Origin: Clostridiaceae bacterium
Lineage (GTDB): Bacteria; Bacillota; Clostridia; Peptostreptococcales; Tindalliaceae
DNA: 64,000 nucleotides
Reading direction: 5' to 3'
Assembly (NCBI GenBank): GCA_011390155.1
Contig: JAABSW010000012.1
Coordinates: forward strand, 1-64,000
Shown: positions 8,829-49,480 of the stretch, piece after piece
Position numbering within the stretch: position 1 is the stretch's first letter
Layout: each line of letters begins with the position of its first letter
Notes under the pieces: generated by a model
Database searches by the model: none
What the model was told of the DNA's origin: nothing
Seen by the model: only the letters and a program-made list of their open reading frames with translations
Made by a program: the position numbers and the translations under genes

Positions 8829-9587
8829 ATGATGCGTTTTAAAGACAAAGTAGTACTTATTACAGGAGCCGCAGGAGGAATTGGATCTGCAACCGCCAAG
8901 CGATTTGCTTCTGAAGGGGCAAAAATCGTTTTGGTAGACATGGATCAAGAAGGGTCTGAAAAAGCAGCGAAGAAACTCAACCTGAATGCTGAGGATTATT
9001 TAGTGGTGAAAGCCGATGTAACCAAGGAAGAAGATGTGAAAAACTATGTAAAAGAAGCCAAAGATCGTTTCGGAAAAATTGACGTGTTTTTCAACAATGC
9101 CGGTATCGAAGCCAAATATGAAAGTATTATGGAGACAGACAGCGATGCCATGGAAATGGTACTGGATGTGAACTTAAAAGGAGTTTATTACGGTCTGAAA
9201 CATGTGCTAAAGGTGATGACGGAACAGGGCTCGGGAAGTATTATTAACACCTCTTCGACAGCAGGCTTGCTCGGTTTTCCCAACATGGCCCCATATGTGG
9301 CTTCAAAACATGCGGTCATTGGGCTGACAAAAACAGCAGCCTTAGAAGTGGCGGCTAAAAAAGTACGGGTTAACGCCATTTGCCCCGCACCGGTAGACAC
9401 CGACATGATGGAGGATATTGAGGAAGCAAGCGGTATGGAACAAGAAGATTTTAACGTGGCGATCCCTCTGGGACGTTACGCAAAAGCCAAGGAAATTGCA
9501 GCCTTGGTGGCCTTCTTGGGGTCCGATGATGCCTCCTATATTACAGGTAGTGCCTATACCATTGACGGAGCCATGACCAGCGGTTAA
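8829..9587 (+). CDS. SDR-family oxidoreductase
   Basis: About 252 residues. The Rossmann motif TGAAGGIG at the N-terminus, NNAG (about residue 90), the catalytic Ser (INTSS) and YVASK with catalytic Tyr and Lys give a classical short-chain dehydrogenase/reductase. VDMD after the second strand has an acidic residue, which usually means NAD(H) preference. Close relatives are annotated as 3-oxoacyl-ACP reductase or glucose dehydrogenase; the substrate cannot be named here. GAGGAGG at 8819-8825 precedes ATGATG, and the second ATG (8832) is equally possible. It is a single-gene unit on the plus strand with its own terminator. Confidence 0.9.
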   Translation: MMRFKDKVVLITGAAGGIGSATAKRFASEGAKIVLVDMDQEGSEKAAKKLNLNAEDYLVVKADVTKEEDVKNYVKEAKDRFGKIDVFFNNAGIEAKYESIMETDSDAMEMVLDVNLKGVYYGLKHVLKVMTEQGSGSIINTSSTAGLLGFPNMAPYVASKHAVIGLTKTAALEVAAKKVRVNAICPAPVDTDMMEDIEEASGMEQEDFNVAIPLGRYAKAKEIAALVAFLGSDDASYITGSAYTIDGAMTSG

Positions 9588-9614
9588 GTTCATTATTAAT
9601 AGGAGATATTAAAC

Positions 9615-9666
9615 AACAGTCAAACTTCCTGCATTTTACGCAGAAGTCTGGCTGTTGATATTTTTT
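9615..9666 (+). terminator. Terminator after the SDR gene
   Basis: AACAGTCAAACTTCCTGC pairs imperfectly with GCAGAAGTCTGGCTGTT, followed by a T-rich run. It lies between convergent genes and could work in both directions. Confidence 0.8.
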
Positions 9667-9678
9667 GGTGTAATTGGT

Positions 9679-10638
9679 TTAGTATCCCTTCAGAGGGTCC
9701 ACCACATTCATCATTTCGCCTTCCCCTGTTTGGTATACTTTCAGGTTATGGCTGATGATTTCCATGGCTTTTTTCATGTATTTGGTGGATTCGCCGCAAA
9801 TATGAGGAGTAATCACCACGTTTTCCAACTTCCACAATGGGCTGTCCTCCGGTAATGGTTCCTCTTCGAAGACGTCCGCCCAAAAGGCCCTGATTTTGTT
9901 TTCCTGCAGCACAGGAATCAGGTCCGCTTCTTTTACGGTGCTACCCCTTCCCATATTGATGAGGCAAGCTGAATGTTTCATTTGGTTCAGTAATGAGGCG
10001 TCCACCAAATGCTCTGTTTCCGGAGTGCCGGGCAGCAGGTTGATGATGTAGTCACTTTCACTGAAAAGCCACCCGATGTCTTCCATGCCCACCACCTTTT
10101 CCACATGGGGTACTGGTGTAGGATTGTTTTTCAAACCAATAACCCGCATGCCCATAAAGGCTGCTTTTCGGGCCACTTCCTGGCCGATGGTACCCAGGCC
10201 CAGAATGCCCAGGGTGGCACCATGGATTTCTCCCTGTTCAGACCGGCGATCCCAGGTAACATCAAACTGTCGACGCATGAAAGTGTGAACATTGCGGGCC
10301 AGCATCACCATGGCAGCAATGGAGTATTCCGCCATGTGAATCCGATGAATGCCTTTTCCATTGGTCACCACAGCTCCCTGGGCCATCAGTTCTTCCAGGG
10401 GAAAGGCGTCCACTCCCACACTAAGGGCCTGGACCCATTTCAAATTTTTTCCTTTCAGTAGAATGTCTTTGTTGCAGGGAAAAGCCACCAGGATTTCAGC
10501 TTCCGGGATAATTTTCTCCAAGTCTTCCGGTTTCAGAACGATGTCCAGTTGCCAGTCCTTGGAAGGATTAAGGTATTTCACAATCTCTTTTCGTTCCACC
10601 TTCAGGTATTTAGGGGCATATACCACCATTTTTCTCAT
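9679..10638 (-). CDS. D-isomer-specific 2-hydroxyacid dehydrogenase
   Basis: A 319-residue protein with the NAD-binding motif GILGLGTIGQEVA (about residues 145-157), the conserved Arg in NMGRGSTV, the Glu in FEEEPLPEDSPLW and the catalytic His in TPHICGES. It would interconvert a 2-keto acid and a D-2-hydroxy acid with NAD(P)H in the cytoplasm. Phosphoglycerate-, glyoxylate- and vanillate-type members share these motifs, so the substrate is open. It is read alone, downstream of the nrdG terminator. Confidence 0.92.
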   Translation of the reverse strand: MRKMVVYAPKYLKVERKEIVKYLNPSKDWQLDIVLKPEDLEKIIPEAEILVAFPCNKDILLKGKNLKWVQALSVGVDAFPLEELMAQGAVVTNGKGIHRIHMAEYSIAAMVMLARNVHTFMRRQFDVTWDRRSEQGEIHGATLGILGLGTIGQEVARKAAFMGMRVIGLKNNPTPVPHVEKVVGMEDIGWLFSESDYIINLLPGTPETEHLVDASLLNQMKHSACLINMGRGSTVKEADLIPVLQENKIRAFWADVFEEEPLPEDSPLWKLENVVITPHICGESTKYMKKAMEIISHNLKVYQTGEGEMMNVVDPLKGY

Positions 10639-10666
10639 GGTTTCATCATCTCCTTTTATTGAAACA

Positions 10667-10696
10667 ATCCCCCAGGGTCATGACACCTTGAGGGAT
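10667..10696 (-). terminator. Terminator after nrdG
   Basis: Minus strand ATCCCTCAAGG pairs with CCTGGGGGAT, followed by TGTTTC; the T-run is short. Confidence 0.6.
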
Positions 10697-10723
10697 CATT
10701 GTTGTTATATTGTTCTTCAACAC

Positions 10724-11410
10724 TTAAAAGCGAATAATGACTTCTTCAAACCACTGTTGAATTTCGCTATGCACTTCTTTCAGGAAGGCCTCGTCATAGG
10801 GATGAAATTTTCCTTTGCCTGCCAGCACATGCTGACTGTCTCGAAAATTTTGTAACACATACCTCTTGCTTCCTTTTACCCAGTAAGCAATGGCGATAAT
10901 ATCATCCCTGGTTAATATTTCCTGGCACACAGTGGTGCGAAATTCGTAATGAGTCATATGTTCCTTGATCAAGGTGATGCTTCTTTCCAACGTTGCTTTG
11001 TCCACGGGCACTCCAGTCACTTTTTGGTATTTATCCGGTGGGGCTTTGATGTCCATGGCCACATAATCTACCAGGGATTCTTGGAACAGTTTTTCAAGGA
11101 GCTCCGGATTCGTGCCATTGGTGTCTATTTTTATCTGGTATCCCATTTTTCTGATGTCAACTACCATGTCGTACAAATCGTCAGAAAGAGTGCATTCTCC
11201 CCCAGAAAAAACCACTGCATCAATAAGATGTGCTCTTCTGGCCAATTCTATCATCAACTCTTCACGGTTCAATGCCTCTCCATCCAAGGCCAACAACTCA
11301 CTGTTATGACAATAGGGACATCGAAAGTTGCAACCCCTGGTAAACAAGACTGTTGAAAGTCCGTTGGGATAATCGATGAGAGACGTTTTTTGTATGCCGC
11401 CAATGGTCAT
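10724..11410 (-). CDS. nrdG: Anaerobic ribonucleotide reductase activating protein (radical SAM)
   Basis: About 228 residues. The radical-SAM cluster motif CNFRCPYCHNSE is near residue 27, preceded by TSLIDYPNG typical of NrdG-type activases. GGECTL follows as the SAM-binding GGE motif. It would use SAM and a 4Fe-4S cluster to install the glycyl radical on NrdD, which is encoded just upstream. The start is set at ATG 11410 because GAGGTG lies 6 nt before it; the GTG at 11419 is part of that site. A terminator between nrdD and this gene implies separate or read-through transcription. Confidence 0.93.
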   Translation of the reverse strand: MTIGGIQKTSLIDYPNGLSTVLFTRGCNFRCPYCHNSELLALDGEALNREELMIELARRAHLIDAVVFSGGECTLSDDLYDMVVDIRKMGYQIKIDTNGTNPELLEKLFQESLVDYVAMDIKAPPDKYQKVTGVPVDKATLERSITLIKEHMTHYEFRTTVCQEILTRDDIIAIAYWVKGSKRYVLQNFRDSQHVLAGKGKFHPYDEAFLKEVHSEIQQWFEEVIIRF

Positions 11411-40845: not shown

Positions 40846-41619
40846 TTATTTCTGTACATGTGGGTTACGTATCAGATGAATATAGTTAAGCACTCTCACC
40901 ATTTCATCCTTAGAAAAGGTGCAGATTGATCCAATAATGCTTTGCACTTTTGGATCATATAAAACATCCCTCATTTCCGGTGTAATTGCCCCGATCATGT
41001 CTTCAACTTCTTCTTGTTCAAGAATCAGGTAACATACTGATATGCCAAGTAATTCACTTATTTTTTCTATGGTGTCCAGGGAGGCCTGCACTTTTCCGTT
41101 TTCAAGATGTGCCACCATTGCCGGTGATATGCCGGCTGACTCTGCAACATCTTTCTGTGTCATTCGGCGGCCCTTACGTGCTATGCGAAGCTTATCGCCT
41201 ATGATGCTCTGTTTTCTTTTGTTACCTATGAATAAGCTGATCGGCACCCCGAACACCTCTGTGATGGACTTCATTGCAGAAAAGGAGGGAACTTTTTCTC
41301 CCCTTTCCACTTCGCTGAGGTAAGCAGGCGACATGTCGACCAGGATACCCAATTGTTCCAGACTGTATTGATGCTTTTTTCGTAAAACCCGAATTTTGCT
41401 TCCCAGGTTACCCACAGTCATATGTTTCCAACTGGGAACCTCATCATCGCTAATATGCAAGGCATTCACCATGCGGTTGAATGTGCCGGGGGTCATATCC
41501 CTTTTTCCCGTTTCCATGTCGATCCATTGATTGATGGGTATCTTCATCTCATCAGCCATTTGCCGTTCTGTTAAGTTTCGGGATACTCTAATGCTTTTTA
41601 ATACATGTGTACTAATCAT
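40846..41619 (-). CDS. XRE-family regulator with three tandem HTH domains
   Basis: About 257 residues. Three Cro/C1-type helix-turn-helix domains occur in a row: LKSIRVSRNLTERQMADEMK (about 6-60), SKIRVLRKKHQYSLEQLGIL (about 70-125) and KLRIARKGRRMTQKDVAESA (about 135-190). A ~60-residue C-terminal tail follows (FSKDEMVRVLNYIHLIR). Domain 1 lacks the usual Gln-Ser recognition-helix pattern and may be degenerate. AGGAAG precedes ATG 41619; the extension to 41670 lacks a site. Target genes are unknown; the divergent rhodanese lipoprotein gene 430 nt away is a candidate. Confidence 0.88.
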   Translation of the reverse strand: MISTHVLKSIRVSRNLTERQMADEMKIPINQWIDMETGKRDMTPGTFNRMVNALHISDDEVPSWKHMTVGNLGSKIRVLRKKHQYSLEQLGILVDMSPAYLSEVERGEKVPSFSAMKSITEVFGVPISLFIGNKRKQSIIGDKLRIARKGRRMTQKDVAESAGISPAMVAHLENGKVQASLDTIEKISELLGISVCYLILEQEEVEDMIGAITPEMRDVLYDPKVQSIIGSICTFSKDEMVRVLNYIHLIRNPHVQK

Positions 41620-41670
41620 TAAACTCTTCCTTTCCCTCAGCGTTCTAATCACCCTGATAACCTTCATCAT

Positions 41671-42046: not shown

Positions 42047-43024
42047 ATGTTGTCAAAGAAAAAAACCATTAGTGTGTTGCTTATTCTACTGTTAAGCCTG
42101 TCTATGCTTGCTGGATGTGGATCTCCAGCGCCTGCCGAAGAACCGGTTGAAGAACCTGCTCCAGTAGAAGAACCTGCAGAGGAACCTGCTGAGGAACCTG
42201 CTGAGGAACCTGCTGAAGAACCTGCCCAACTGGATGAAGCAGAAGTATTGAAATCTTTCACCGAAGAATACTATGCGTCAATGCCAGATAGCAACAATAA
42301 CATGAAGGCGGAAGATGTACTTCAATTAATGACAGATAACCCAGATGCCGTTGTATTACTGGACATGCGTGCGGCTGAAGATTATGATGCAGGCCATCTG
42401 CCAGGTGCCTATCATGCACCTTTCGGTACTTTTACAGATACAATGAAAAAATTACCCACAAACCGTCAAATCATCGTTTACTGTTACAGTGGACAAAACT
42501 CTTCTCAGGGTGCAGCTGCACTTCGCCTAATGGGTTTCAATGCAGTTTCAATGACTTCAGGAATGAATTTTGGATGGGCACCTCTTGAGTTAGGTGAAGA
42601 TACACTGGAAATGGAAGCAAACGAGATGGGTGATGACCGTGACATGGATCTTTCACCTGAGCAGGAAATTGTTTATGCAGCATTGAGTGACTATTTTTCT
42701 GCCGGCAGTAACCATGTTACAGCTCCGGAAGAAATTCAGGAATTAATCGAAGGTAACCCTGGCGCCATCACCATTCTCGACATCCGTGCTGCTGACGACT
42801 ATACAGCAGGTCACATCGAAGGTGCTATCAACATACCCTTCAGAGAAGTTGGCAGCCGACTGGATGAAGTCAGCAAAGTGAAGCCTGTTTATATCTTCTG
42901 CTATTCAGGACAAACTGCCGGACAAACACAAGTGAACATGCGCATTAATGGATACAATAGTTTTACTGCCAACCGAGGCATGATTGGTTGGAATAACGCA
43001 GAACTTCCCGTAGTGACAGAATAA
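42047..43024 (+). CDS. Double-rhodanese lipoprotein
   Basis: A 325-residue protein. A lipoprotein signal ends at LAGC, then a Glu-Glu-Pro-Ala repeat linker (about residues 25-62), then two rhodanese domains (about 75-190 and 215-320). Their active-site loops are VYCYSGQNSS and FCYSGQTAGQ, both with the catalytic Cys. Rhodaneses carry persulfide sulfur, or selenium in some cases. The lipobox places it on the outer face of the membrane, which is unusual but seen in anaerobes. The next gene is the Sec cytochrome, so a joint role in sulfur, selenium or metalloid chemistry outside the cell is possible (inference). It has its own terminator. Confidence 0.93.
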   Translation: MLSKKKTISVLLILLLSLSMLAGCGSPAPAEEPVEEPAPVEEPAEEPAEEPAEEPAEEPAQLDEAEVLKSFTEEYYASMPDSNNNMKAEDVLQLMTDNPDAVVLLDMRAAEDYDAGHLPGAYHAPFGTFTDTMKKLPTNRQIIVYCYSGQNSSQGAAALRLMGFNAVSMTSGMNFGWAPLELGEDTLEMEANEMGDDRDMDLSPEQEIVYAALSDYFSAGSNHVTAPEEIQELIEGNPGAITILDIRAADDYTAGHIEGAINIPFREVGSRLDEVSKVKPVYIFCYSGQTAGQTQVNMRINGYNSFTANRGMIGWNNAELPVVTE

Positions 43025-43112: not shown

Positions 43113-43208
43113 GGTGCATCTATATGTATCAATGTTAGAATTTTTTGTATATTTGATTGTCATTTAATCTACTATCGTTTACAATAAGAGTATGAAGGAG
43201 GTGGTGTT

Positions 43209-44600
43209 ATGACGCAATCTTTATCCTGTAAAAGAATTACTCATCTGACCAGCATACTTGCTCTGACCTTGTTGATGGTGGCTGTTCTTGTGGGATGTGG
43301 AAGTCCTGCAACTGAAAGTCCCACCGAAAGTCCCACCGAAAGCCCCACCGTAAGCGAACCCGAAGGCCCCACCACACCTGTCGCCATTACACCTACTGAC
43401 AGCGCCAGTTGTGTTGCCTGTCATACTGATGCAGACATCATCGAAAGCATGGCAGAACTGGTTGATGACGGTGGCCACGGCGGTGAAGGAGGCTGAGGTG
43501 TGGCAGGGCCTCAGTTGACGGCCACAGAAATGTTTTTAGTGTCCAACGAGTTTACCGCTTCCACCCATGGTGAATTAGGGTGTATTACCTGTCACGGTGG
43601 TGAGAATGTAGCTGATAAGGCTGCCGCCCACGCTGGTATGCAACCTTACCCCTCCAGCGATTTGGAAGGCGTATGTTACCAGTGCCATGCCGGTGTTGCG
43701 GATACTTATGCAGATTCACTTCATTACAACCTGCACGGCATGCAGAATGGGTTAATGGCGTTCTCCAATGACAGTTTGTTATCAGATTCCCCTGAACATG
43801 CAGAAGTTTTTGATAAAAACTGTATTTCCTGTCATGCTACATGCGGTGACTGCCACGTAAGCAGACCCAGTGTTTATTCAGGCGGACTGATCGACCAACA
43901 TAATTTTTTAGGAACACCACCCATGGATCAGACTTGTTTTGGTTGTCATGGAGCCCGTAATGCAGGTGAATTTATGGGAACAGTTGGGTTCCAGGGCGAT
44001 GTTCACTTTGAAATGGGTATGACTTGTATGGATTGTCACCCACAAAATAACTTCCACGGCACAGGAGAAGTGAATGACAGCATGTGGACTAAGGCAGAAT
44101 TGCCTAGCTGTTATGATTGCCATGAAAACCAACAACCTGGTCAATCTGAGCTTCAGGTGCATAACCTTCATACTGAAACAGTATCCTGTCAGGTATGTCA
44201 TGCCCAGGCCAACAATAACTGCTTTGAGTGTCATGTCGAATACAACGAAGATCAAACAGGGCTTGGCAGTACATCTGATGTGCGTCTGATGTTTCGCATT
44301 GGCAACAACCCAATTCAGTCAGAAACACGACCTTACGAATATGTCACGCTGCGTCACATACCGACTTATGTAGATTCTTTTGAAGTAGTAGGCCCTGATA
44401 TGCTCCCAAATTATGATGAAATCAGTAACTGGAAGTATTCACCCACCCATAACATACAACGGTTGACATTCCAGAACGAAACCTGTAACGCTTGCCATGG
44501 CAACGAGAATATATTCCTAAAAGAAAGTGATCTGTTGGAATCTGACAGCCAGGCCAACTGGAACCTGATTCCTGAAGTACCTCCGGAAATGAATAATTAA
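43209..44600 (+). CDS. Undecaheme c-type cytochrome lipoprotein with selenocysteine (Sec96)
   Basis: Read through UGA at 43494-43496 the frame is continuous from ATG 43209 (GAAGGAGGTGG upstream) to TAA 44600, 463 residues. The signal peptide ends at a lipobox (LVGC), and a Ser-Pro-Thr-Glu repeat linker follows. I count 11 CxxCH heme motifs: CVACH before the UGA, then CITCH, CYQCH, CISCH, CGDCH, CFGCH, CMDCH, CYDCH, CQVCH, CFECH and CNACH. The heme motif upstream of the UGA and the ten downstream are in one frame, which argues against two genes. The Sec lies in GGHGGEGG-U-GVAG, 15-20 residues after heme 1. A SECIS-like hairpin follows directly. ResB and ResC genes for heme attachment are next. 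Likely role: extracytoplasmic electron transfer or a Sec-dependent reductase; substrate unknown. Confidence 0.88.
43497..43526 (+). promoter_or_regulatory. Candidate SECIS element of the cytochrome gene
   Basis: Directly after the UGA, GGCCUC (43507-43512) pairs with GA-C-GGCC (43517-43523) with one bulged C and an AGUU loop. The loop starts 17 nt after the UGA and has G at position 2. An alternative 6-bp stem UGUGGC/GCCACA (43499-43504 with 43521-43526) encloses the same region. Both fit the bacterial SECIS layout. Confidence 0.65.
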
Positions 44601-44712: not shown

Positions 44713-45981
44713 ATGATCTCACGCATAAAACGTTGGCTTTTCAGCCTTCAATTTGGAATTTTTTTATTAATACTCATGGCGGTATATGTTACATTCGGCA
44801 CTTTGCTACCCCAGAACTTACCAGATGCCTTTTATGTGGAAAATTACGCCTGGAACACACTTGTGTTACTTTTAGGATTCAACAAGGCCTATAGCTCATG
44901 GATTTTTCGGGTTATTATGGTTTTATTCCTGATAAACCTGTCAGGTTGCACCCTTAAAATGATACCTTCACTGCAACGCCGTTTTCATCATAATTACTTT
45001 CCATCTCCTACACTTAATGCAGAGAATCTTTGGCCTGACCATGCCACCCTTGCAACCATGCTCCCTTTATTAAAAAAGAAAGGTTTTACAGTTTCTGAAT
45101 CACCCGATGAGCCGGGAACTTACCGGGCAGTTCGTCATCGTTTTGGGGTTTTTGGCCCAACCATCACCCACATTGGAATCATCACCATCATACTCAGCAG
45201 TTTTGTTGGAAATTATTTCGCTCAGGAAGGTTTTTTTAATTTAATGCCTGGAGAAACTGCCAGTTTTCATGAAGAAAACTTTTCTGTGTCACTAAGCGAT
45301 TTTTATATAACACACCGGGAAGACGGCTCTGTGGAACAATATTACAGTGATTTGATGGTGCTGGAAAATGACATTCCCATTAAAGAAGAAACAATATGGG
45401 TAAACAAACCGTTACGGCATAACGGAATGATGCTGTATCAAACAAGTTTTGGCTGGGCTTCCAAATTGCAAATCCGTGAGACGGCATCAGGGGACCTGGT
45501 GCAAGAATCTTACATGCGCGATGAAGAGACAATATTTTTTCAGCCTGCCCATTTAAACATTCAACTATTTGGTTATTACCCGGATTTTCAGATTGGCATG
45601 GATGGAATGCCCCTGACCATGACCCAGGAAAAACGGAATCCCCACTACGCAGTGGTTTTATATCATTTTGGAGAGTTTGTTGATTCCTTCATCATGAACC
45701 CTGACCAGCGTTTTACCTACTTGGATTACGAAATCAGTTTTCCCGACAGTGTTATGTACACCGGTTTGATCTTCAGAAAAGACTATGGCTATTATGCCGT
45801 TCTTCTTGGATGCCTCTTCTTGTTAGCCGGTTTAATGTTGGCTTTTTACTTTTATCCTAAATACATTTATATCAGGGACGGTGTCTTACATGCCATCTCA
45901 CGGCAGAATTCATGGGGGTTCAGCATGTGGCTTAAGCGACAAATGAGTCAATTTAATAAGAAAGAAGGGGATATACAATGA
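44713..45981 (+). CDS. resB: Cytochrome c biogenesis protein ResB
   Basis: A 422-residue membrane protein. The N-terminus has RWLFSLQFGIFLLILMAVYVTFG, and three further membrane segments and a large extracytoplasmic domain (about 170-345) follow; the last segment is near 355-385. GVFGPTITHIGIITIILSSFVG is typical of ResB/CcsB-type proteins of System II. With ResC it forms the heme exporter and synthetase that attaches heme to CxxCH. AAAGGAGG precedes the ATG, and it overlaps resC by 4 nt. Confidence 0.94.
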   Translation: MISRIKRWLFSLQFGIFLLILMAVYVTFGTLLPQNLPDAFYVENYAWNTLVLLLGFNKAYSSWIFRVIMVLFLINLSGCTLKMIPSLQRRFHHNYFPSPTLNAENLWPDHATLATMLPLLKKKGFTVSESPDEPGTYRAVRHRFGVFGPTITHIGIITIILSSFVGNYFAQEGFFNLMPGETASFHEENFSVSLSDFYITHREDGSVEQYYSDLMVLENDIPIKEETIWVNKPLRHNGMMLYQTSFGWASKLQIRETASGDLVQESYMRDEETIFFQPAHLNIQLFGYYPDFQIGMDGMPLTMTQEKRNPHYAVVLYHFGEFVDSFIMNPDQRFTYLDYEISFPDSVMYTGLIFRKDYGYYAVLLGCLFLLAGLMLAFYFYPKYIYIRDGVLHAISRQNSWGFSMWLKRQMSQFNKKEGDIQ

Positions 45982-46793
45982 ATTATATTGTTCTTGAAGA
46001 AAACCTCTTTACCATTGCATTTGTTCTATACATTGTGGCATCACTGAGTTTTTTTATATTCCTGGCTTCATCAAAAGAAAAACTGGGTTACATGGCTGTT
46101 TCTGTTTCATTACTGGGTTTTTTCGTCCACACCATGGCCATGGGGGCTCGCATCATCGAATCTGGCCGGCTCCCTTTCAGCAATCAATATGAATTTGCCA
46201 ACAGCTTCACCTGGGGCATTGTGCTTTGTTACCTGATCATTCACTTTTATTATCGTTTTACAGCTGTGGGCGCTTTTGTCATGCCACTGGCTTTTTTAAT
46301 GATGGGTTACGCTTCACTTTTACCCAGGCATGTAAGGCCACTAATGCCTGCTCTGCAAAGTAATTGGTTGGCCATTCATGTGGGAACAGCTGTGGTTTCC
46401 TATGGTGCCTTTGCCGTGGCAGCAGGACTTTCCTTTATTTATTTGATTTCTTTCAACAAGAAGTCTGATAAAAGGTCACTGTTACCGGACCCAGATGCCT
46501 GTGATTTCCTCAGCTATCGCATCATCGCTTTCGGCTACTTAATGCTGACATTGGTCATCATTACCGGTGCTATTTGGGCACGAAGTGCGTGGTCACGGTA
46601 CTGGGGTTGGGACCCTAAAGAAACCTGGTCTCTGATCACCTGGATTATTTACTCTGTGTACCTTCATCTTCGTTACAACCGTGGTTGGAAAGGAAAACCT
46701 GCAGCCTGGTTCGCGGTAATTGGGTTTGTCGCGGTAATATTTACTTTTATTGGTGTTAATAATTTGTTACCAGGAATCCATAGCTATCGATAG
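45978..46793 (+). CDS. resC: Cytochrome c biogenesis protein ResC (CcsA-type heme handling)
   Basis: A 271-residue protein with eight predicted membrane segments. The heme-binding WWD-like signature is WSRYWGWDPKETWSLITW, and the conserved His residues lie in flanking loops (IHVGTAVVSYG and LHLRYNRG). It presents heme for attachment to apocytochromes. Its ATG overlaps the resB stop. The upstream Sec cytochrome with 11 heme sites is the obvious client. Confidence 0.95.
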   Translation: MNYIVLEENLFTIAFVLYIVASLSFFIFLASSKEKLGYMAVSVSLLGFFVHTMAMGARIIESGRLPFSNQYEFANSFTWGIVLCYLIIHFYYRFTAVGAFVMPLAFLMMGYASLLPRHVRPLMPALQSNWLAIHVGTAVVSYGAFAVAAGLSFIYLISFNKKSDKRSLLPDPDACDFLSYRIIAFGYLMLTLVIITGAIWARSAWSRYWGWDPKETWSLITWIIYSVYLHLRYNRGWKGKPAAWFAVIGFVAVIFTFIGVNNLLPGIHSYR

Positions 46794-46881: not shown

Positions 46882-47247
46882 TTACATCTGTGACAATGCG
46901 TCTTCAATGGCTTCCAAAATTCCTTCGCTGGAACCGGTTGCCTCAGCAACAACGTCCACACCTTCTACTGATTGATTTTCAATAACAGCAGGGATGATTT
47001 CTTCAAACGCACTATCAGAAAGCCCTGGGGTATCACTTGATTCCACCACTTCAATTGCTGTAATGGTGTCACCCTCAACGGTTACTTCTACAACCACTTC
47101 CCCGGCATAGCCAGTGCCTGTACCTGTCAGTGTTTGTGTTTCAACTGCCGGCTCAGACGCTCCACCACATGCTGTCAATGTTCCCAGTGTTATGACTGCG
47201 ATTAGCACCAATACCAGTAAACCCTTCATCTGTTTCATATCCATCAT
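46882..47247 (-). CDS. FMN-binding domain lipoprotein
   Basis: A 121-residue protein. The signal ends at LTAC (lipobox) and the mature part is one FMN-bind domain: GEVVVEVTVEGDTITAIEV, DTPGLSDSAFEEII and the C-terminal AEATGSSEGILEAIEDAL. The usual flavinylation motif is SGATxT; here the equivalent AEATGS offers Ser106 in place of Thr, so covalent FMN attachment is plausible but not canonical. Such lipoproteins pass electrons outside the membrane. ApbE, which attaches FMN, is encoded at 60.3 kb. AGGAGG precedes ATGATG (47247 or 47244). Confidence 0.88.
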   Translation of the reverse strand: MMDMKQMKGLLVLVLIAVITLGTLTACGGASEPAVETQTLTGTGTGYAGEVVVEVTVEGDTITAIEVVESSDTPGLSDSAFEEIIPAVIENQSVEGVDVVAEATGSSEGILEAIEDALSQM

Positions 47248-47382: not shown

Positions 47383-48024
47383 TCAAAACTTTCGACTGCC
47401 CGTCTTATGTTTTAACCAAAACGCGGCAGCTTCTGTTCGGTTACTCACTTCAATTTTTTTCATGACTTTTGTAACCAGGTTTCGCACCGTCTTTTCCGCA
47501 AGGAAGAGACTCTCACCAATTTCTTTATTGGTTTTGCCTTTGCTGATGAGGCTCAGCAATATCTGTTCTCTATCATCAAGTTTTCTTAAAACAGGGTTTT
47601 CAGCTGGTGCCATCAAGGTGTTTCCCACAGAGGGGTCCACTACCATTAATCGATTCAATACATTATGAATTGCCTTTGTGATAGATCTGCCATCAACGTT
47701 CTTCAACAGATAACCATCAGCCCCATTCCTCAGGGATTCCTGTACCATATAATCTTCAGCATACGCCGTTAGAATCAACACCCTGATGTCCGGTTTGATT
47801 TTTTTGATTTCCCTGACACCTTCAGATCCATCGCCATCCGGCAGCTTCATGTCTAACAACACCAAATCTGGCGTCACTGTTTTCAACAGCTCATAAGCCT
47901 CTTCCAGCGTAGATGCTTCAGCGCAGACATTTAGCTCTGGATCTTTGTCAATAAGGCCTTTAAGGCCCATTCTAACGATGTTGTGGTCATCCACCAGCAT
48001 AATGTTATTGACGCTATTGTTCAT
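47383..48024 (-). CDS. LuxR/NarL-family response regulator
   Basis: A 213-residue protein. The receiver domain has MLVDDHNIVRMGL and the phospho-Asp in LVLLDMKLPDGDG; the C-terminal HTH is EQILLSLISKGKTNKEIGES and KTVRNLVTKVMKKI. It overlaps the sensor kinase gene by 11 nt, so they are a pair. The FMN-binding lipoprotein and cytochrome operon nearby are candidate targets, by position only. Confidence 0.95.
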   Translation of the reverse strand: MNNSVNNIMLVDDHNIVRMGLKGLIDKDPELNVCAEASTLEEAYELLKTVTPDLVLLDMKLPDGDGSEGVREIKKIKPDIRVLILTAYAEDYMVQESLRNGADGYLLKNVDGRSITKAIHNVLNRLMVVDPSVGNTLMAPAENPVLRKLDDREQILLSLISKGKTNKEIGESLFLAEKTVRNLVTKVMKKIEVSNRTEAAAFWLKHKTGSRKF

Positions 48025-49381
48025 ATAACCCCTCCTCCCAGGGAACTACAATGATGACATTGGTCAAACCATTTTTATTTTCAAAAGTGATGGTGGCACT
48101 GATTTCTTTAGCACGTTCCTTCATTGTTTGTATCCCAAAACCAACTGGTCCTTGATTTGACGGGTTTATTCCAACACCATTATCTGATATATGAATCACT
48201 AATTCCTGTAAAGTTGAATACACACTCACCTTTACATTAGTAGCATGAGCATGCTTTTGAACATTAAGCAATGCCTCCTGAAGAATAAAGTACAGCTGGG
48301 AATTTGTAACAGGAGATAGTTTTCCCAATACCATGGGAGGTACATGGTATTCAAATTTCACATGGATTTTTGTGTTCACTTTAAATCGATCAATGAGGTT
48401 CTGGATGTTGTCCTGAAAGTCTTCCATCAACATACCTGTTTCTGAAAAGCTTTTCAAAAATGTACGCGCCTCGCCAATGGTTTCATTCAATTCTTTTTTC
48501 AGTAATAGCAAATCTTTTCGATAGGTGGCAGGATCGTTATCCATCATATTTTCGATGAACATCCCGGCTCCAAACAAACGTTGTATGATTTGATCGTGCA
48601 CCATACGAATGGTTTTTTTTCGCTCCTGCAGCAACATTTGTCTTTGGGCATACTTATTCAGCCGCTCCTGCATCTCCCACACGAAAGAATCAAACAGCCT
48701 AATGGTAATAACAGAGATGCCGATGGCTGACATCACCCGAAACATTTCCATATACTGGCGCGTCAACTGGCTTAATGCCAGCATTAGCAGACTAGTGGTC
48801 ATGGCGAAAAATAAAAACAACAAACCTCCCAGATAATACATGCGTGCGTAGGAAATCAATTTCATCCGCTCCAACTGCCTGCCATTGATGAAATAGGCAG
48901 TTCCTGCCAGAAGCGCACCAGGAAACCCCAGTAAATACCAGGCAATACGATCAAATAGCTGTATATAGGCAAAGTAATCCATGGAAACGGAGTAGTACCT
49001 GCCCAGGTAAAAGAAACTCCATAATACAAAAATCATCCAGGGCAGCCATACATGTAAATTTAAGTGCCTCACACGGTTTGTTGCCAACAAGGCGATGCCA
49101 AAACTGAGCAAAATTGTAAAGGCAAACCCATGAATTTGTGTTTCTGTCAAATATAATAGCTGATCTCTTTCACCATAAACCCCCATCAACCTAATCATGG
49201 CAATCCATTCGGCTGTTCCATAAGAAACGCCAAATACACCCAGCAAATGAATCCATCGCATCAATGGAAATTCACTGCTGTGTCGAAGTTTTTGTTGTAA
49301 CGCAGAAACACCCATGGTAAAAAAGGCTAATCCATAAAAGAAATACAACCACATATATGATTGAGCACTCAATTCAATCAA
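48014..49381 (-). CDS. Sensor histidine kinase with multi-membrane N-terminus (DegS/NarX-like)
   Basis: About 455 residues. The first ~230 residues hold seven or so predicted membrane segments (7TM-like sensor). A HisKA_3-type dimerisation domain with the phospho-His in MVHDQIIQRLFGAGM follows, and the HATPase has HAHATNVKV and DNGVGINPS. The signal is membrane-linked and unknown. I use TTG 49381 as start because AGGAGG is 7 nt before it; the ATG at 49399 has no site. It pairs with the LuxR-type regulator. Confidence 0.9.
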   Translation of the reverse strand: MIELSAQSYMWLYFFYGLAFFTMGVSALQQKLRHSSEFPLMRWIHLLGVFGVSYGTAEWIAMIRLMGVYGERDQLLYLTETQIHGFAFTILLSFGIALLATNRVRHLNLHVWLPWMIFVLWSFFYLGRYYSVSMDYFAYIQLFDRIAWYLLGFPGALLAGTAYFINGRQLERMKLISYARMYYLGGLLFLFFAMTTSLLMLALSQLTRQYMEMFRVMSAIGISVITIRLFDSFVWEMQERLNKYAQRQMLLQERKKTIRMVHDQIIQRLFGAGMFIENMMDNDPATYRKDLLLLKKELNETIGEARTFLKSFSETGMLMEDFQDNIQNLIDRFKVNTKIHVKFEYHVPPMVLGKLSPVTNSQLYFILQEALLNVQKHAHATNVKVSVYSTLQELVIHISDNGVGINPSNQGPVGFGIQTMKERAKEISATITFENKNGLTNVIIVVPWEEGLYEQ

Positions 49382-49480
49382 AACAGATCCTCCTGCCATT
49401 GTTATTCGTTTGTTTGTTACATTTTATCAGATTTTCCAATACTTATCGAGTGTGAACACAGGCAGGTTTGTATCCACCAA

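Follow-up and report, generated by a model that had tools for sequence, protein, structure and literature searches.

The window, the whole stretch of 64,000 nucleotides analyzed here, contains at 43209–44600 (+ strand) the gene of an 11-heme c-type cytochrome into which a selenocysteine (Sec) is predicted to be inserted at an in-frame UGA codon, and a neighboring gene for an exported rhodanese. Sec at residue 96, the export signal, the 11 hemes, and the partnership with the rhodanese are each supported by comparative sequence analysis. We moderately favor the view that the two proteins act as a redox enzyme outside the cytoplasm: the rhodanese would present a sulfane-sulfur (or selenium) group, Sec would accept it, and electrons would be supplied or removed by the heme chain. 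The eleven-heme Sec protein is common to many relatives of this anaerobe and probably represents a new redox enzyme that makes use of selenium.

The selenocytochrome gene

The frame at 43209–44600 is preceded by a Shine-Dalgarno (SD) sequence, AAGGAGG, at 43195–43201 and encodes 463 residues plus a stop when read through its single in-frame TGA (43494–43496), the codon of residue 96. The lipobox LVGC, with Cys30 (codon 43296–43298) as the putative site of the lipid anchor, and one of the 11 CxxCH motifs are located on the 5′ side of the TGA, and the other ten motifs on the 3′ side. The preliminary description of this DNA had joined a lipobox and heme 1 to ten CxxCH motifs in one continuous frame, and this is borne out. 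Other family members have a plain signal or a membrane anchor instead of the lipobox. A standard gene finder would report two separate genes here.

The surroundings of Sec96 should be noted. The residue is positioned in a Gly-rich loop with hemes 1 and 2 flanking it, and the alignment of members shows no conserved Cys beside it apart from the heme Cys residues. Ten extra His residues are conserved in most Sec members against 11 hemes, suggesting that at one heme a ligand position may be open or unusual. An AlphaFold2 model of the selenocytochrome from an 8-row alignment has a pLDDT of 30.

Conservation of the UGA codon in homologues

The first homologue set was obtained by a scan of genome contigs and consists of seven relatives with full-length frames (51–82% identical); TGA occupies the same column in all eight sequences, including that of the window. 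The survey was then extended by a phylum search (398 genomes) and a class search, giving a sample within one phylum. TGA is found at the Sec site in 23 distinct members (the window, L025–L031, L067–L073, L075–L078, and L088–L091), with identities down to about 34%, and all of them continue in frame. The same-genome pairs L003/L025, L004/L031, and L030/L087 are counted once in this number, and L091, a partial, broken copy, is included. In L075 the UGA lies one column off in the alignment, and we read it as the same site. The homologues thus read on beyond this position instead of stopping, and a sequencing error at 43494–43496, as considered in the preliminary description, cannot account for the UGA, since the same codon is TGA in 23 genomes. 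The broken homologue (L091/L101) breaks off behind its fifth heme motif and has no rhodanese in its vicinity; it represents a frameshift or a decaying copy.

One member, L074 (5790–6758), has Ser (TCA) at the Sec position, with the hairpin described below intact and selA in the genome, the assembly of which is 72% complete. The retained hairpin suggests a recent change; L074 represents either a recent loss of Sec or an assembly error. No member with Cys at the Sec position was found in the sample within this phylum. The distant relatives L079–L082 (26–30% identity) have neither the Sec motif nor all or most of the loop. In a tree computed with the loop columns removed, the Sec members cluster, the Sec-less relatives fall outside, and the labels need only one gain and one loss. 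The branch separating the Sec members from L079 and L080 has a support of 90/74 and is a place where long branches meet, so that a single origin of the Sec members is likely rather than proven. Between the window and L025, a close homologue from the named strain Anoxynatronum buryatiense, pN/pS is 0.42 before the UGA and 0.09 after it, ratios that are rough because pS is near saturation but that indicate purifying selection on both sides.

A bSECIS-type hairpin downstream of the UGA

The apical loop of the bSECIS consensus is small and bears G in the first two positions. A hairpin of this type, GGCCUC-AGUU-GA(C)GGCC, is located at 43507–43523 (+ strand), as identified by a constrained hairpin search and a synonymous-recoding control. 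The hairpin with an AGUU loop reported earlier is therefore real, but it starts 10 nt after the UGA, not directly behind it. With the constraint of a small loop having G in the first two positions, such a hairpin is found in 18 of 19 non-redundant members, with loops mostly of AGUU(N) or GGA that start at about +17 to +21. The stem sequences vary with the pairing kept (GGCC/GGCC, CCCC/GGGG, and CCACAGC/GCUGUGG in different members). The summed hairpin energy is −177.8 kcal/mol. Recodings that preserve the amino acids average −52.8 (sd 15.8), and none of 500 reaches the observed value, indicating that selection acts on the hairpin in addition to the encoded amino acids; the 19 members are related by descent and amount to fewer than 19 independent tests. 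Plain folding of the 47 nt after the UGA gives no consistent signal, and the hairpin is visible only with the bSECIS-type constraint and the recoding control.

Selenocysteine machinery and decoding of the UGA

The genome contains selA, selB, and the tRNA-Sec gene together on contig C28, and selD a few kilobases off, in answer to the earlier proposal that these genes be looked for. The selD gene (L083, contig C28:29966–30886) has an in-frame TGA itself, and SelD of this genome is probably also a selenoprotein. SelA is found in all 23 other genomes tested, in those with Sec members and those with Sec-less relatives alike, and its presence hence does not account for the distribution of Sec among the members. 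TGA terminates 7 of the 31 long frames in the window and is still an ordinary stop there, so general recoding of UGA is rejected.

The UGA could alternatively be a true stop, followed by a separate 3′ protein from GTG 43500. An SD-like AAGGAGG at 43486–43492 is located 7 nt ahead of this GTG, contrary to the preliminary description, in which the 3′ part was said to have no ribosome binding site. The AAGGAGG falls within the codons of the Gly-rich loop, and neither it nor the GTG is kept in the homologues, the codons of which differ at the GTG site. A separate 3′ gene from GTG 43500 is rejected on this ground. Its product would have no export signal, as had been noted. The UGA, the frame, and the hairpin are conserved, and the member with Ser reads straight through. 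Taken together, a protein without Sec is exceedingly improbable, and UGA 43494–43496 is almost certainly decoded as Sec, as judged from the conservation of the codon and its context.

The rhodanese partner and heme attachment genes

The gene at 42047–43024 (+ strand) encodes an exported lipoprotein with two rhodanese domains in tandem, both with a CYSGQ active loop. The protein matches PF00581 above the cut-off, and the active-site Cys is present. A rhodanese gene adjoins the cytochrome gene in 20 of the 23 Sec members and also in the Ser member, upstream of it in some members and downstream in others. In L026 only the end of a rhodanese is visible, at the contig edge, and no rhodanese is found in the available flanking DNA of L030, L031, and L101. 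Most of the partner rhodaneses have two domains and CYSGQ-type active loops, the exceptions being single-domain proteins in L071 and L072 and divergent ones in L075–L078. Among the Sec-less relatives, no rhodanese was found beside L079–L081, and at L082 a divergent one is located at a distance of about 2 kb.

In genome G933 (L090/L100), the Sec cytochrome and two rhodanese domains share a single open frame, about 730 residues long (L100, 2701–6452, − strand), and a separate tandem rhodanese gene adjoins it. From the gene neighborhood and this fusion, the adjacent exported tandem rhodanese is very probably the functional partner of the selenocytochrome. The adjoining rhodanese in most Sec members and the fusion linking the pair physically are newly found here.

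Downstream of the cytochrome gene, ResB (44713–45981, + strand; PF05140) and ResC/CcsB (45978–46793, + strand; PF01578 and TIGR03144) for heme attachment are encoded as previously described, and the two genes follow the cytochrome gene in eight loci. A divergent helix-turn-helix regulator gene is located at 40846–41670 (− strand), with a relative near the module in six loci. A plasmid search gave no match.

Comparison with known selenocytochromes and rhodaneses

The preliminary description regarded a Sec residue in a multiheme cytochrome as rare. This needs qualifying, because ExtKL/MccSep and an octaheme family are already known. Of the selenoprotein families listed in a 2026 review, three have heme motifs or names, namely ExtKL (NF040886), the GSU2204 CXXCH protein (NF041027), and the octaheme family (TIGR04315) (PMC13188914). 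Geobacter ExtKL is a 5-heme Sec protein, the gene cluster of which includes the rhodanese ExtH (PMC5877670, PMC6148476). MccSep, with structures in the PDB (9wt8–9wtc) including a U325A mutant, is probably ExtKL itself or closely related to it, to go by its name and size. ExtKL/MccSep resembles the window protein in being a multiheme c-type cytochrome with one Sec, in having its annotated gene split at the UGA, and in having a rhodanese in the cluster. However, ExtKL has 5 hemes and a UGA that comes after the heme part, whereas the window protein has 11 with the UGA after heme 1, and the ExtKL cluster contains a porin and belongs to a Gram-negative host, whereas the present family is found in Bacillota. 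The window protein has no match to the ExtKL model NF040886 at E ≤ 1e-3, nor do 24 members at E ≤ 1e-8. The comparison of the window protein with MccSep gives an E value of 0.24, which is at chance level, and PDB sequence searches return generic heme matches only.

The octaheme tetrathionate reductase family (TIGR04315) likewise has Sec in a multiheme cytochrome (PMC13188914), but with 8 hemes instead of 11, and its model gives no match. Weak similarity to DmsE-type decaheme cytochromes (TIGR03508) and to ExtM/ExtN extends over heme-rich segments of the family, with best scores of about 41–51 bits against cut-offs of 192–800; the window protein scores 46.8 bits with TIGR03508, below the curated cut-off of 192.2. 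Since the window protein matches none of the known models of Sec heme proteins, it is placed by these searches in a family separate from ExtKL, though in a similar setting. A tandem two-site rhodanese of Desulfitobacterium hafniense, also an anaerobic member of Bacillota, has the same architecture as the window rhodanese, as far as the title of its report tells (cited in PMC6148476). Pairing or fusion with a Sec cytochrome distinguishes the rhodaneses of the present family from what that title describes.

No description of an 11-heme selenocytochrome family was found in a literature search, and the proteins apparently form a separate, unnamed, obligate-Sec family in Bacillota. They provide a second case, apparently unrelated to ExtKL, in which a Sec cytochrome has a rhodanese as its partner. 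Cys homologues exist for nearly all selenoproteins (PMC13188914). Searches based on Cys/Sec pairs would miss the 11-heme family, because no Cys member of it was found in the sample within this phylum.

Proposed reaction and alternatives

SelB would insert Sec at residue 96, guided by the hairpin at 43507–43523, and ResB/ResC would attach the hemes, to give an exported, membrane-anchored 11-heme cytochrome c. The rhodanese may pick up sulfane sulfur from thiosulfate or polysulfide, or possibly a selenium compound, to form a cysteine persulfide. The selenolate of Sec96, lacking an adjacent resolving Cys, could then attack this persulfide or a small substrate to form an Se–S adduct. Two electrons from the heme chain would release sulfide; in the oxidative direction, the heme chain would remove electrons. 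A thioredoxin-like cycle is unlikely, because no conserved non-heme Cys is present beside Sec. The separate Sec redox site beside the heme chain suggested in the preliminary description is plausible, and the rhodanese partner, not mentioned in that description, adds weight to the idea. The sulfane-sulfur chemistry of the pair is put forward tentatively, its chance being slightly short of even. It is possible, with still more reserve, that the family is an obligate-Sec enzyme class of Bacillota in which sulfane sulfur passes directly from the rhodanese persulfide to a selenolate next to a heme and is reduced with electrons from the 11-heme chain; rhodanese-fed selenium-heme sulfur reductase is offered with the same reserve as a label for such an enzyme. 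The proposal gives selenium a testable role beside hemes, in sulfur or selenium transfer.

The substrate of the same selenocytochrome and partner may instead be an oxidized selenium or tellurium compound, with the rhodanese carrying selenium in selenite reduction or detoxification. This is suggested by ExtKL, a Sec cytochrome clustered with the rhodanese ExtH, for which a role in selenite reduction has been proposed, and by the loss of ExtI, which impairs reduction of both selenite and tellurite (PMC5877670). However, ExtKL is not a detectable homologue of the selenocytochrome, the porin-type ext cluster is absent here, and no selenium-specific feature is found at the locus, so we regard such a substrate as rather unlikely. 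The heme lacking a conserved distal His, together with the absence of a neighboring Cys at Sec, could also mean that Sec96 is a ligand of one heme or of another metal, an unusual site, with the rhodanese serving only in maturation or protection. Contrarily, about eleven hemes are retained in the Sec-less relatives too, which have fewer conserved extra His residues, so that Sec does not stand in for a lost ligand, and the rhodanese fusion points to sulfur chemistry; a ligand role is improbable. Even less probable is a generic cytochrome for extracellular electron transfer (e.g., iron reduction) with a noncatalytic Sec. The weak matches to DmsE, ExtM/N, and MtrC-type models fit such a protein, but the Sec, loop, and hairpin are kept in most members without Cys replacement, which is hard to reconcile with a nonfunctional residue.

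Neighboring redox and regulatory genes

A small FMN-binding lipoprotein, a possible electron carrier, is encoded next to the module at 46882–47247 (− strand) of the window, and relatives are found likewise in L025 and L031. A two-component system consisting of a LuxR-type response regulator and a histidine kinase is encoded at 47383–49399 (− strand) and is also beside the module in these two loci. In L073, genes for a b561-type cytochrome b together with a second related cytochrome (9470–11058, − strand) adjoin the Sec cytochrome gene, a possible membrane electron donor to it. b561-type genes are also found near L070 and L082.
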